Below the pieces are notes generated by a model. The model was not told the origin of the DNA, ran no database searches, and saw only the letters and a program-made list of their open reading frames with translations. From assembly GCA_903913865.1 (NCBI GenBank), contig CAIWMU010000142.1, forward strand, positions 1 through 64,000: DNA of 64,000 bases, written 5' to 3'. Below are positions 11,779-59,941 of the stretch, piece by piece; the first letter of the stretch is position 1, and each line of letters starts with the position of its first letter. Origin of the DNA: an uncultured Verrucomicrobia subdivision 3 bacterium (GTDB lineage: Bacteria > Verrucomicrobiota > Verrucomicrobiia > Limisphaerales > UBA8199). Position numbers and translations under genes: made by a program.

Positions 11779-12383
11779 GGTCCGGGATTGGCAGCACCGT
11801 CACTCGATCCGGTTGCCACCGGCCATTCACGTTGCCGCCATTCAACGATTCCCCCACCGAACACGAAGATCTTCTCCGCGGCCACTCCTGCGTCCCTCAG
11901 CATCAAGGCTGAAAACTCACTGTCCTCGCATTCCCCGCCATTGCAGTAAACGATGATCCGTTGAGCCACCGTGCATGCGGGCAGGACGATCGGCAGATAC
12001 TTTTCCGGATGGTAATAGTCCAACTGGAGAGATCCGGGAATGTGTCCACCAGCGTAGGCCTCATCGCCACGGGCATCGATAAAGATCACAAGGCCCTGCA
12101 GGCGGAGCGGGTCATCGAAGGCAGCCTTGGCAGCCAGCGCATCCGCAATCTGGAGCCCCTTGGCTAAAAGTCGATCCCGGACTCCATTTGTCCCATCTGG
12201 GTGACTGGGTTGTAAGGATGGTTGATTTCTGCCACCCCCAGCCCCCTTCGTGGGTTCGGAGGATTCGGGAAAGTAGTTTCGAGAAAGGGAGAGTCCTCTG
12301 GGGGAGATGGCGTTCGCCCCCAAGGCTAGTGTCAATCCAACCAAAGCCACCAAGAATCCTTCAATGAGAATGGGCTTGATCAT
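11775..12383 (-). CDS. Rhodanese-domain protein
   Basis: 202 aa; VIFIDARGDEAYAGGHIPGSLQL and IIVYCNGGECEDS active-site loop. Confidence 0.85.
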   Translation of the reverse strand: MIKPILIEGFLVALVGLTLALGANAISPRGLSLSRNYFPESSEPTKGAGGGRNQPSLQPSHPDGTNGVRDRLLAKGLQIADALAAKAAFDDPLRLQGLVIFIDARGDEAYAGGHIPGSLQLDYYHPEKYLPIVLPACTVAQRIIVYCNGGECEDSEFSALMLRDAGVAAEKIFVFGGGIVEWRQREWPVATGSSDGAANPGP

Positions 12384-12413
12384 TGGCTGGGGGGGATTCC
12401 CCGTCTGTCCGCC

Positions 12414-13544
12414 CTAATGGGGTAGGGGAGGCGTAGGAACAGGAATCGAGTTGGTCTTTGGAGAACTTGCCGCCGGGGCTACCCTCGCTGGTGCAGGGAT
12501 TCCGACAGGTGTGGCTCTCGGGATCTGGGTGATGGGGATCCTGATGGACGGTGCTTGAGGGTGGGTAGTCTTGAGGGTTAGTTCCGCAGGTATATGGGCC
12601 GGAAGTTCGAAGCCCTTTGGAAACGGGACTGAGATACTGAAGGTTTTGCCCGGAACGGTCTGGTGAAGCTGAGGTGTGATGTTGGAAATGCTGATCGAAA
12701 GATCAGAGACCTGGATCAGCGAGGAGCTGTTATTCTGGATTGTAATGGTGGGGGTTGTATCTCCTCCCAACGGAGCCGGCGGTAGTACGATTTGGGGCGG
12801 CATGACCATCACAGCGGGCTGCACGTTTGCCCATGCAGTAACCGTCAGCAGCGGCATGTTGGTAGAGGATGTTTTTGCGGTAATCTGGCCTTGAAAATTG
12901 CCGGATGTCAGAGGTGGAACCGCAGAAATGACAAACTGATATTCCTTTCCGGGTATGTTGGTATGGAGGGTGGCCGTCAGTTTGGGATTGTTGCTTTCGG
13001 GGGGGAAAACTGTCAGGGGCTCATCAGTGTTGTTGATGACACGGACGATGGATGAATTCGCTGGTCCGTCCGAGGGTATGTTGAGGATGGCAAACTGAGG
13101 GTTGATGTCGATGGGCCTCCAGATGGTGCCGTTGATCTGGAGCATCACTGCGGGTTGGATGGGGTCGCTGCTGGTAACGGTCACGGTTTTGTGAACCTGA
13201 CCGTTAAAGTTGGCGCTGTTGAATTGGACTGGAATGATGCCGGTCTTGCCTGGCTCCACCTGGCGTGTCCAGTCTCCAGCGGCGGTACACCCGCAGGAAG
13301 GTTGGACATTGCTAAGGTTGAGGATCCCACTGCCGATGTTGGTGAAGTAAAAGGTGTGCTTCACCAGATCGCCCATCTTCACTTTTCCGAAGTCAAAGAT
13401 GGGCGCTTCAAAGGCAATTTTTGCTGCGGGAGCAGAAGCCGTAATAGGGACACTGGCTGGAAGAGCTTGCGACAAAGCGAAATTCGCAAAGAAGATCGCC
13501 ATCCCAAAGCCGCCCCAAATTTTTGCGGAATCTAGGTTTTTCAT
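12414..13544 (-). CDS. DUF1573 domain-containing exported protein
   Basis: 376 aa; FDFGKVKMGDLVKHTFYFTNIGSGILNLSNVQPSCGCTA is a DUF1573 signature. Confidence 0.9.
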   Translation of the reverse strand: MKNLDSAKIWGGFGMAIFFANFALSQALPASVPITASAPAAKIAFEAPIFDFGKVKMGDLVKHTFYFTNIGSGILNLSNVQPSCGCTAAGDWTRQVEPGKTGIIPVQFNSANFNGQVHKTVTVTSSDPIQPAVMLQINGTIWRPIDINPQFAILNIPSDGPANSSIVRVINNTDEPLTVFPPESNNPKLTATLHTNIPGKEYQFVISAVPPLTSGNFQGQITAKTSSTNMPLLTVTAWANVQPAVMVMPPQIVLPPAPLGGDTTPTITIQNNSSSLIQVSDLSISISNITPQLHQTVPGKTFSISVPFPKGFELPAHIPAELTLKTTHPQAPSIRIPITQIPRATPVGIPAPARVAPAASSPKTNSIPVPTPPLPH

Positions 13545-53202: not shown

Positions 53203-53610
53203 TTACTTGATCCGGCGACGGACCTTCAACTGTGCCAGAGAGGCGGCCAATGCTGCGCTGACACGGGCGGCTTCGTCATCATCCAACTTTTCAGCAAGGC
53301 GGGCCTCGGCACGGCGGCGGGCTTCCTCCGCCTGGGTTTCATCGATATTCTCGGCCCGCATGGCCATGTCGGTCATGATTGCAACCCGATCACCAGTGAT
53401 CTCGACAAACCCTTCGCCAATAGCCAGAAAATAGTCACGACCATCCTTGCGAACGACGATCTCCCCGGGAACAACTTGAGCCATGAGTGGCACGTGGTTC
53501 GGGTAAATGCCCATCTCCCCTTCAGCTCCGGGAAGTGTGACCATATCGACCTGCTCCGAGTAGGTTCGAGCCTCGGGAGTCACGATTTCCAATTTCAAGG
53601 TTGCAGCCAT
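53203..53610 (-). CDS. atpC: ATP synthase epsilon subunit
   Basis: 135 aa; LKLEIVTPEARTYSEQVDMVTLPGAEGEMGIYPNHVPLM. Confidence 0.97.
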   Translation of the reverse strand: MAATLKLEIVTPEARTYSEQVDMVTLPGAEGEMGIYPNHVPLMAQVVPGEIVVRKDGRDYFLAIGEGFVEITGDRVAIMTDMAMRAENIDETQAEEARRRAEARLAEKLDDDEAARVSAALAASLAQLKVRRRIK

Positions 53611-53669: not shown

Positions 53670-55133
<1,464 letters not shown>

Positions 55134-56012
55134 TCATCCCAAAGCCATGGCCGCACTGGAGATTTCCAGAAGTTCCTTTGTGATGGCTGCCTGGCGCATC
55201 TTGTTGTATTCCAAGGTAAGATCCTTGATGAGTTGTTGGGCGTTGTCCGTCGCATTCTTCATGGCCACCATGCGGGCGCTTTGCTCACTGGCACGAGACT
55301 CGAGCAGCACCTGATAAACCTGAAAGTTGAGATAGTGGGGAAGCATCGCTTCCATCACCGATTCGAGACTTGGCTCGAAGATGAACTCAGTGCCACTGCG
55401 TGTTAGCTCGTGGCTCATGGCCTCCCCTTTCACATCGGAGGAGACGCCTTTGATTTCGCCGACCGGGAGAAGTGGAATCACCACGGGTTTGAGGTTCAAC
55501 GTCGAAATGAAGTTCGTGAAAAGAACATCCACACGGTCAACCTCCCCGCTCAGGAACAGCTCCCTGGCGAACTTGGAGATGGCACGTGCTTCACTGAACT
55601 GCGGAGTGTCCTTGTAGGTGAACTCGGCCTTGAGCTGCCGCCGGGTGCGGGCGACGAACTGCGCGGCCTTCCTTCCAGCGGTGATGTAAAGTGTTGTGTC
55701 CCTGTCAAACTTGGAGGCCTCACGAAGGATGTTGCTGTTCAAGGCACCGCACAATCCCTTGTCGGAAGTCACAAGAATGACCCCACGGCGCTTCCCCGGC
55801 CGCTGTTCCATCAATGCATGCCTGGACTCACCCGCCACGGCAGCGATCTCGCTCAAGACGTCATTCATCACCTCGGCATAGGGCCTGCCTGCTAGAGCGG
55901 ACTGCTGTGCCTTGCGCATCTTCGACGCCGAGACCATCTGCATGGCCTTGGTGATCTGCGCCGTGTTCTTGACCGACTTGATGCGTCGGCGGATGTCGCG
56001 GGTGCTGGGCAT
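55134..56012 (-). CDS. atpG: ATP synthase gamma subunit
   Basis: 292 aa; STRDIRRRIKSVKNTAQITKAMQMVSASKMRKAQ. Confidence 0.98.
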   Translation of the reverse strand: MPSTRDIRRRIKSVKNTAQITKAMQMVSASKMRKAQQSALAGRPYAEVMNDVLSEIAAVAGESRHALMEQRPGKRRGVILVTSDKGLCGALNSNILREASKFDRDTTLYITAGRKAAQFVARTRRQLKAEFTYKDTPQFSEARAISKFARELFLSGEVDRVDVLFTNFISTLNLKPVVIPLLPVGEIKGVSSDVKGEAMSHELTRSGTEFIFEPSLESVMEAMLPHYLNFQVYQVLLESRASEQSARMVAMKNATDNAQQLIKDLTLEYNKMRQAAITKELLEISSAAMALG

Positions 56013-56015
56013 CGG

Positions 56016-57551
56016 TTACTTGGAGTAGGTTTGTTTGAATTCGACCACGGCTGCTTTGAGTTCCGAGATCAGAGCATCGTTGAGGGCCTTCTCCTGGGCG
56101 ATTTTGGCCATCAGTTGAGTCTTCCGGCTCGAAAGATAGTCCGTCAGCTTGGTCTGGAAGTCTTTGATCTTCTCGACGGCCACATCGTCCATCATCGAGT
56201 TTTGCACAGTCCAAAGGATCGCGACCTGAGCCTCCAACGCAATAGGCCGATATTGGGGCTGCTTGAACACCTCAATGATCCGCTTGCCACGCTCAATCTG
56301 CGCCTGTGTTTTCGCATCGAGATCTGAACCAAACTGGGCGAATGCAGCCAATTCCCGAAACTGTGCAAGGTCACCTTTCAGTCGGCCCGCAACTTGTTTC
56401 ATCGCCTTCACCTGCGCGGCTGATCCGACGCGGGACACCGAGAGACCGACCGAGATCGCAGGACGAACGCCCTGGTAGAAAAGATCGGTTTCCAGATAAA
56501 TCTGGCCATCGGTGATGGAGATGACGTTTGTCGGAATGTAGGCTGATACATCGCCCGCCTGGGTTTCGATGATTGGCAGCGCAGTGAGAGATCCATTCCC
56601 GAACTTCTCGTTGACACGGGCAGCACGTTCCAGAAGGCGGCTATGCAGGTAGAACACATCACCAGGGTATGCCTCACGACCTGAGGGACGCTTCAACACC
56701 AGGGAGACCTGACGATATGCAACAGCGTGCTTGGAAAGATCGTCGTAGATGATCAGGGCATCCATCCCGTTGTCCATGAACCATTCTCCCATCGCCGCTC
56801 CGGCAAAAGGCGCAAGGTATTGGTTGGTGGCGGAATCAGAGGCAGAAGCTGCGAGAACGATGGTATAGGGCATCGCACCAGCCTCTTCGAGAACCGAAAT
56901 AACACGCGCGATGTTGGACTGCTTCTGACCGATCGCCACGTAGATGCAATAAAGCGGACGGTGGGTCTTATCCCCGGAATCCTCGGCAGCCTTGTTAAGG
57001 CGGGCCTGGCTGATAATCGTATCAACGCATATCGTCGTCTTGCCGGTGGAACGATCGCCAATAATGAGCTCGCGCTGGCCACGGCCAATCGGAATCATCG
57101 CATCCACTGCCATGATGCCGGTCTGCACGGGTTGCGTCACCGACTTGCGTTTGATGATGCCGGGTGCGATTTTTTCCACGGGATAGGAAACGTCGGACTT
57201 AACAGCTCCCTTTCCATCCACAGGCAGCCCAAGGGTGTTCACAACTCGGCCAAGCAACCCTTTGCCCACAGGCACCTGCAGAAGCTTGCCTGTCGTGCGA
57301 ACCTCCGAGCCTTCCCTGATTTTCGTATAATCGCCCAGAATAATGGCGCCGACTTCGGTTTCCTCCAAATTCAAAGCCAGCCCAACGATTCCGTTGCCGA
57401 AATCCAACATCTCGTTAAGCATCGCATCGGTCAAACCTTCGATCTTGGCAACGCCGTCCCCAATCTCGCGGACGGTGCCGACGTTCTGCTTTGCCGTGGA
57501 TGTCTTCACCCCGGCTATCTGCGACTCAATTTCCTGAAGTAAGTTGCTCAT
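56016..57551 (-). CDS. atpA: ATP synthase alpha subunit
   Basis: 511 aa; [36 protein letters not shown]. Confidence 0.99.
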
Positions 57552-57587: not shown

Positions 57588-57979
57588 TCAAAAGGACTCT
57601 TCGAGTGCCTTCAGCCTTGCCTGGATGCTTCCATCGTAAACGTCACTCCCAACCTTGATGCGCAATCCCCCAATCAACGACTCGTTTTGTAAAAAGGAAA
57701 CATTCAAGGCAGGTCCGTGAGCCTTGGCAAGATTGGCCCTAACCAAGTCCTGCAAATCCTGTCCAAGTGGGACTGCACTTTCAACCACTGCCTTCCGTCT
57801 TTCCAGATCAAGCTTCACCAGACGCTGAAACTGGGTCAGGATGGCGAGTAGCCGCGAGGTTTTACTTCGATCACCTTCTTCACAGTCTCCCTGACGCGAG
57901 ACTCATCCAGCACACTGCCCACGATGCAGGCCCGAAATAAATGCTTTGCTTCCCTTCTGGCTTGTTTGGGGATCTTCAT
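57588..57979 (-). pseudogene. atpH: ATP synthase delta subunit, apparently frameshifted (about 130 aa if restored)
   Basis: Frame A from ATG 57979: MKIPKQARREAKHLFRACIVGSVLDESRVRETVKKVIEVKPRGYSPS* (stop 57836-57838); frame B: LAILTQFQRLVKLDLERRKAVVESAVPLGQDLQ...LIGGLRIKVGSDVYDGSIQARLKALEESF. Frames join at 57848. Confidence 0.85.
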
Positions 57980-58000: not shown

Positions 58001-58534
58001 TTACAGGGCCACCTGACGGGCAGTTTCCTCTGCAATCCGTTTGTGGTCGTCGGGAGTGAGAACCTTTCCAGTTACCGTTGCTGTGGTCTGAACAACCAGC
58101 CTCCCCACCTCGCGCTTCAGTTCAGACAACATTCGGGCGTGATCCGCAGCTGAGGCTTCCCTTGCCTTGGCAATGATCTGTTCGGCTGCGGCGATTGCTT
58201 TCTGAGTTTCCTGTTCCTGGACTCGGGCTGCAGCAGCACGCGCTTCCTCAATCAATTTTACTGCCTGGGCATTGGCCTCAGTCAGCGTTTCGCGCCTCTG
58301 GGCCTCTGCCTGGGCAAGGGCGCTCTTCATTTTCTCAGCATTGGACATGCTTTCGGCGATGATCTGACGCCGCTCCTGAAGCATCTCAACAACGCGCTTG
58401 TAGGCAAAGCGATGGAGCAGAAAGGCGACTATCCCAAAGCTGATTATCTGGGCAATAAAGTGGGGCCAATCAACTCCGAATTCACGGGCGGTATCGCCCA
58501 CGATTCCTGCGGACATGAACATGATGAAATTCAT
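58001..58534 (-). CDS. atpF: ATP synthase b subunit
   Basis: 177 aa; N-terminal TM then long charged helix; operon position. Confidence 0.96.
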   Translation of the reverse strand: MNFIMFMSAGIVGDTAREFGVDWPHFIAQIISFGIVAFLLHRFAYKRVVEMLQERRQIIAESMSNAEKMKSALAQAEAQRRETLTEANAQAVKLIEEARAAAARVQEQETQKAIAAAEQIIAKAREASAADHARMLSELKREVGRLVVQTTATVTGKVLTPDDHKRIAEETARQVAL

Positions 58535-58612: not shown

Positions 58613-58840
58613 TTATGCCGGCCAGGCCTTCGTCGCCAAAAAGATGGCGAAGAACACGATGCCTTCTGCGAAGGCGATCGCCAGAATCGATTGCACGAGA
58701 ATCTTCGTTGCCGCGCCGGGATTGCGTCCCACCGCTTCAGAAGCCTTTGCACCGATCAGGCCCACGCCGATTGCCGCACCGAGTGCGGCGAGACCGACGT
58801 GAATGTTGCCGGTCATTTCTGCCAATATTGGCATCAACAT
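58613..58840 (-). CDS. atpE: ATP synthase c subunit
   Basis: 75 aa; GLAALGAAIGVGLIGAKASEAVGRNPGAATKI...IAFAEGIVFFAIFL. Confidence 0.98.
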   Translation of the reverse strand: MLMPILAEMTGNIHVGLAALGAAIGVGLIGAKASEAVGRNPGAATKILVQSILAIAFAEGIVFFAIFLATKAWPA

Positions 58841-58950: not shown

Positions 58951-59862
58951 TTAGTGATGTGCAGGCCCGTGGTCCTCATCGTGCTGACAAATCAGCATCG
59001 TGAACACTGCAGTGAGCAGCATGAAAACGAGTGCCTGAACAATTCCGACCAAAAGTTCCATGAAGTAAAACGGAATGGGAATAAGGACACGACCGAGCCA
59101 GCTTGGAACGAGGTTCGCCATCGACTCCAGCATGTTTTCACCCGCAAATATATTTCCAAACAACCGGAAGCTCAACGAGACCGGGCGGAATGCTATGGAT
59201 ACCACTTCGAGGACACCTACCGCGAGAAACACAAGAATCATCAACATCTTCAGGAGTCCTGTGGTTTCCCCCTTGGGCGCAAACAGGTGCTTCAAGAACC
59301 CAATCGGACCATTTGCCTGCAGAGCCCAGACAATCCAGCAAACAAAGAAGGTGACAGACATCGACAAGGTCATGTTCAAATCGGCGTTGGCACCACGGAA
59401 CCATGGCTCTGAAACTTGAAATCCATGCTCTCCGGTGTGCCCATAACCCACAGTCCCGATCCCGGGAAGGAGTCCCAGCCAGTTGGACCAAAGAATGAAC
59501 AAAAAGATCGTCGCAAAAAACCAGAAGGTCTTCTTCACCAATTCACTGCCAATCACCCCTTCAAGGAATCCGTAGAGTCCTTCCACAAGCCATTCCAAAA
59601 AGTTCTGAGCACCCGACGGAACAAGGGTCATCTTGCGGGTTGCCACCTGCGCGAAGGTGATCAGCACGAGGGCTACGATCCATGTCACCAACATGGAGTT
59701 GGTGATTGGAAAACCTCCAATGTTCCACAGCTCAACGGCTTTGGCCGTCAGTTCATGGTGTGCGACTGCGGCCCCAGCTTCAGCATGGGCACCCTCAGCA
59801 GCAAAAGTCGTGGCCCCGGCCGAAGCCAGAACCGACGACACTATTAGATTAAACAGACGCAT
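58951..59862 (-). CDS. atpB: ATP synthase a subunit with N-terminal signal-like extension
   Basis: FRLFGNIFAGENML; track start 59883 is TTG, ATG 59862 (MRLFNLIVSS) preferred. Confidence 0.97.
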   Translation of the reverse strand: MRLFNLIVSSVLASAGATTFAAEGAHAEAGAAVAHHELTAKAVELWNIGGFPITNSMLVTWIVALVLITFAQVATRKMTLVPSGAQNFLEWLVEGLYGFLEGVIGSELVKKTFWFFATIFLFILWSNWLGLLPGIGTVGYGHTGEHGFQVSEPWFRGANADLNMTLSMSVTFFVCWIVWALQANGPIGFLKHLFAPKGETTGLLKMLMILVFLAVGVLEVVSIAFRPVSLSFRLFGNIFAGENMLESMANLVPSWLGRVLIPIPFYFMELLVGIVQALVFMLLTAVFTMLICQHDEDHGPAHH

Positions 59863-59941
59863 CGTGCAGATTACTAATACCAAGGCACAGCGGTCACCCC
59901 GGTGTCAACTTTTATTACAGAGCGCCGAAAACTTGCATCAA

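Follow-up and report, generated by a model that had tools for sequence, protein, structure and literature searches.

The window is a stretch of 64,000 nucleotides from the draft assembly of a bacterium of Verrucomicrobia subdivision 3 (Limisphaerales-type) that has not been cultured. In it, a single-base frameshift splits atpH, which encodes the delta subunit of the F1 ATP synthase. The gene itself is an ordinary short AtpH; its break most likely does not reflect biology. Our best verdict on the cause ranks an isolated sequence or assembly error first and a recent real mutation second.

The split gene and its surroundings

The atpH gene is flanked by atpF (58534-58001) and atpA (57551-56016) on the minus strand, the operon place expected for the F1 delta subunit (Table 1). 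Translation of frame A from the ATG at 57979 gives MKIPKQARREAKHLFRACIVGSVLDESRVRETVKKVIEVKPRGY-SPS, ending with ...KPRGY-SPS-stop. Conservation extends over codons 1-44 of this frame; the last three codons, 45-47 (SPS), lie outside the conserved frame. Frame B, reached by a -1 shift at 57848/57847, reads LAILTQFQRLVK... (also given as LAILTQFQRLVKLDLERRK...) and its stop ends at 57588. The junction was placed by codon-level comparison with 11 relatives, and the frame change in tblastn falls exactly on it. The two frames share an overlap of 64 bases (57902-57839), throughout which the -1 frame is open. Read piecewise, with no base added, the protein has 130 residues. An F1 delta subunit should be encoded by an uninterrupted frame; that of the window is interrupted by the TGA at 57838-57836 and by the frame change at 57848/57847. 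Beyond this single break, no second stop or shift was found in atpH. An earlier note on this DNA had described atpH as split by a one-nucleotide shift, with frame A ending in KPRGY-SPS-stop, and its coordinates, frames and base arithmetic are all correct. It had also placed the missing base between 57847 and 57848, with a protein of about 130 residues restored, and this agrees with the gap-free fit to intact 130-residue relatives. The seven other subunits (B, E, F, A, G, D, C), which it had called complete, all have uninterrupted frames.

Table 1. Positions of the ATP synthase genes and of the parts of atpH in the window.
Feature	Positions	Strand	Description
atpB (subunit a)	58951..59883	-	intact
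atpE (subunit c)	58613..58840	-	intact
atpF (subunit b)	58001..58534	-	intact
atpH frame A	57836..57979	-	ATG at 57979, 47 codons, TGA stop at 57838-57836
atpH junction	57847..57848	-	a base is missing compared with relatives; conserved reading goes on in the -1 frame
atpH frame B	57588..57848	-	codons 45-130 and stop; rest of helix 3 and whole C-terminal OSCP domain
Mechanical ORF within frame B	57588..57818	-	76 aa, GTG start; not thought to be a genuine gene start
atpA (alpha)	56016..57551	-	intact
atpG (gamma)	55134..56012	-	intact
atpD (beta)	53670..55076	-	intact
atpC (epsilon)	53203..53610	-	intact

The assembly comprises 6.27 Mb in 267 contigs and is 95% complete; the contig carrying the window has 106,760 bases. 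A search of the genome with PF00213 found a single copy of the delta gene (64.8 bits). An intact second delta gene was looked for elsewhere in the 95%-complete assembly, and none was found. Only one pair of F1 alpha and beta genes is present. The other close match to PF00006, a protein of 458 residues, appears to be an ATPase of the FliI/SctN type, as identified by reading its sequence rather than by a family scan. Three matches to haem-copper oxidases were found in the genome, and a working ATP synthase is therefore expected. Because the delta gene and the F1 alpha/beta pair are the only ones and haem-copper oxidases are present, loss of delta should be costly.

AtpH among relatives and selection on its two halves

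Frame B alone matches the Pfam OSCP family (PF00213) with an E-value of 5.9e-18 and a score of 66 bits (cut-off 22.3), over profile positions 85-171. The piecewise protein aligns with AtpH of a congener (G001) at 66% identity (7e-58) and without gaps over 130 residues, with 68% identity for residues 1-44 and 65% for the frame B part. In the same comparison, AtpH from six more relatives likewise aligned gap-free with the piecewise protein. A chance open reading frame is ruled out by the Pfam match of frame B and by these gap-free piecewise alignments.

The earlier note had proposed a comparison with AtpH of close relatives, and all eleven named relatives turn out to be unbroken. Indeed, according to the genome records, the congener and ten more (11/11) carry an intact atpH of 130 codons that aligns with the window without gaps. 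The nearest of the eleven are draft genomes of Verrucomicrobia subdivision 3 and Limisphaerales; the genomes of the relatives are metagenome-assembled. In a search of 13 family genomes and of 58 relatives, only the window genome has its main delta match in an open frame shorter than 129 residues (104 residues), and the other PF00213 matches among the relatives lie in open frames of at least 129 residues. Six of the 58 relatives, mostly with incomplete genomes, have no delta match. Two fairly complete genomes of the same order (G014 and G019) have F1/V-type ATPase alpha/beta-like genes and no delta match at an E-value of 0.01; they possibly have a different type of ATPase. A sequence titled Akkermansia muciniphila (CAMBHS010000001.1) has an AtpH that groups with that of the draft genome of Verrucomicrobia bacterium Pedos-1123, and its label may be wrong.

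Both parts of the gene bear similar marks of constraint. Comparison with the congener gives a dN of 0.244 for the part ahead of the break and of 0.256 for the part after it; dS is 1.7 and 3.9, respectively, which are rough values only, since they are saturated. Differences at third codon positions are two to four times as frequent as those at first and second ones in both parts. All 24 columns invariant across 17 relatives are preserved in the window AtpH, and 3 of 50 near-invariant columns deviate, which is ordinary among the relatives. The signs of a decayed pseudogene, relaxed selection or additional lesions, were sought in atpH and not found. These substitution patterns suggest that both halves are under ordinary purifying selection and that the frame has been selected as one protein until now on the evolutionary scale. 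Given this selection, the lesion either does not exist in the living population, arose very recently or is bypassed.

AtpH is 66% identical to that of the congener, vs. 81-96% for the other ATP synthase subunits. The window and congener proteins are about equally distant from those of other genera. One lineage may have exchanged its atpH, or the gene may have diverged fast. The idea that AtpH evolves faster because it is decaying was considered and rejected: the short shared stem explains the low identity to the congener, conserved columns are kept, and the root-to-tip length of the window AtpH is about as expected from a tree of the other subunits.

A short form of the delta subunit

The delta subunits of the class to which the window belongs have about 130 residues, and their Pfam OSCP match misses the first ~48 positions of the profile, often beginning only at position 80. 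In other classes of the phylum, delta open frames have at least 179 residues and the profile is matched from position 1. Judging from these matches, an AtpH devoid of about 48 N-terminal residues appears widespread in the class, and for this class the remark of the earlier note that delta is short in Verrucomicrobia is borne out. The window shares with the short-form delta/OSCP proteins (PF00213) of class Verrucomicrobiae the operon place, the 130-residue frame and the conserved C-terminal domain; it differs from the intact short-form genes in lacking one base after codon 44.

In a structure modelled from intact relatives (pTM 0.58, mean pLDDT 80), three N-terminal helices (residues 5-18, 26-39 and 44-61) precede an alpha/beta C-terminal domain. 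In Escherichia coli, delta has six N-terminal helices, vs. three in the modelled short form. The break, at residues 44/45, coincides with the beginning of helix 3 and corresponds to a site close to residue 90 in delta of E. coli (chain 5t4o_L). According to the model, the 47-residue product would consist of two helices with no stalk-binding domain. From what is generally known of delta, it would be non-functional.

Origin and meaning of the break

Frameshifts elsewhere in the assembly were sought with coding-potential models in about 600 kb. Two coding models gave 12, then 93, same-strand frame switches, mostly ordinary overlaps between neighbouring genes (ATGA etc.). When the 32 switches having no start at the junction were inspected by eye, one resembled a single gene in several frames. 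This gene (L083, positions 12111-13129 of another contig of the same genome, C11) runs through three successive frames and is IS630-type transposase-like by eye; it looks like a decayed or frameshifted insertion element. Besides it, no clear broken gene was found in the ~600 kb. Planted one-base deletions were detected as unexplained switches in 37% (110-170 residues) to 77% (more than 600 residues) of genes; at this detection rate, a high error rate is therefore excluded and a few errors per Mb are still possible. An assembly riddled with frameshifts is thus rejected, as only the transposase-like gene was left of the 93 switches. A second, looser detector was dropped after giving hundreds of false matches from shadow frames. 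A homology screen for other breaks covered about 13 kb of the sample and had power for atpH only.

The break is probably an isolated sequence or assembly error, and we infer that living cells do carry the base. The draft assembly or the underlying reads would then contain a one-base error inside an ordinary functional short AtpH; in living cells, atpH would be one continuous frame of 130 codons, like that of the relatives, and delta would connect the F1 head with the b stalk as usual. The intact homologues, the equal constraint on both halves, the sole delta gene and the draft state of the assembly in 267 contigs support an error, which is the more likely reading because the gene is a core gene with a single lesion and no decay. 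Low-coverage short-read assemblies contain spurious frameshifts; where coverage is 10-fold or lower, they amount to about one or more spurious pseudogenes per Mb (PMC11017572). The window resembles such draft pseudogenes in having an isolated frameshift in a conserved gene that is intact in relatives and shows no decay; that study covered no metagenome-assembled genomes, and in the window the error is a probable one (Cooley and Wright, 2024, PMC11017572). Against an error count the infrequency of errors in the ~600 kb and the break site itself, which lies in no homopolymer: where the window has C, relatives that use the same codons have just CC. The break could instead be a real and very recent frameshift, having reached fixation or a high frequency in the strain that was sampled, that cuts delta to 47 residues and two helices, although we regard this as unlikely. 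F1Fo would then be uncoupled or unassembled, and either the bacterium would depend on substrate-level phosphorylation or the variant would soon be lost again. This fits with the presence of the break in an assembly that is not rife with frameshifts and with a divergence from the congener exceeding that of the other subunits. However, the intact gene of the congener shows extra divergence as well, the root-to-tip length is unremarkable, the remaining operon is intact, and relaxed selection is not seen, dN being equal on both sides and the invariant columns intact.

Two other readings would keep delta functional despite the break. Programmed -1 ribosomal frameshifting is found, for example, in dnaX and in transposases of the IS3 family. 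The window likewise needs a -1 change and its frames overlap. Full-length delta would be made if ribosomes or RNA polymerase slipped back one base between 57902 and 57839, where the -1 frame is open, and the conservation of both halves is consistent with such recoding. We nevertheless consider it improbable: unlike in the known cases, there is no slippery heptamer, no stimulatory structure and no conservation of the break. The overlap (codons 26-48) contains no X XXY YYZ heptamer, in line with the earlier note, RNA folding is average (z -0.21; 80 of 200 shuffles fold as well), and, as the break occurs in one genome only, relatives share no conserved signal. Full re-pairing of the tRNA is available only at the A-AAA run (GTA AAA CCT) and would yield KTSRLLAIL instead of KPRGYLAIL, altering the near-invariant K-PRGY stretch (PRGY to TSRL). 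Full-length delta through a non-canonical -1 slip confined to a single lineage, for example by P-site slippage on A-AAA at codons 39-40, is very improbable, and no paper on frameshifting in a bacterial delta gene turned up in a literature search. Of the three causes that the earlier note had listed, error and recent mutation remain, and recoding is disfavoured by the missing heptamer, the average folding and the intact relatives. Finally, delta might be assembled from two pieces, an N-terminal one of 47 residues and a C-terminal one of 76 residues starting at GTG 57818, as each has a start and a stop. This is the least credible reading of all, since the GTG lies inside the modelled helix 3 (44-61) and has no clear ribosome-binding site, conserved residues 45-54 would be lost, and no relative has a split gene.

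As it stands, the finding is mainly a caution: a lone interrupted core gene in a draft assembled from a metagenome needs a read check before a biological reading. If the break were real, it would amount to a natural loss of the link between F1 and stator in an organism that has respiratory oxidases, or else to a so far unknown recoding site within a core gene. As for the short form of delta, how the F1 head is held is a worthwhile structural question.
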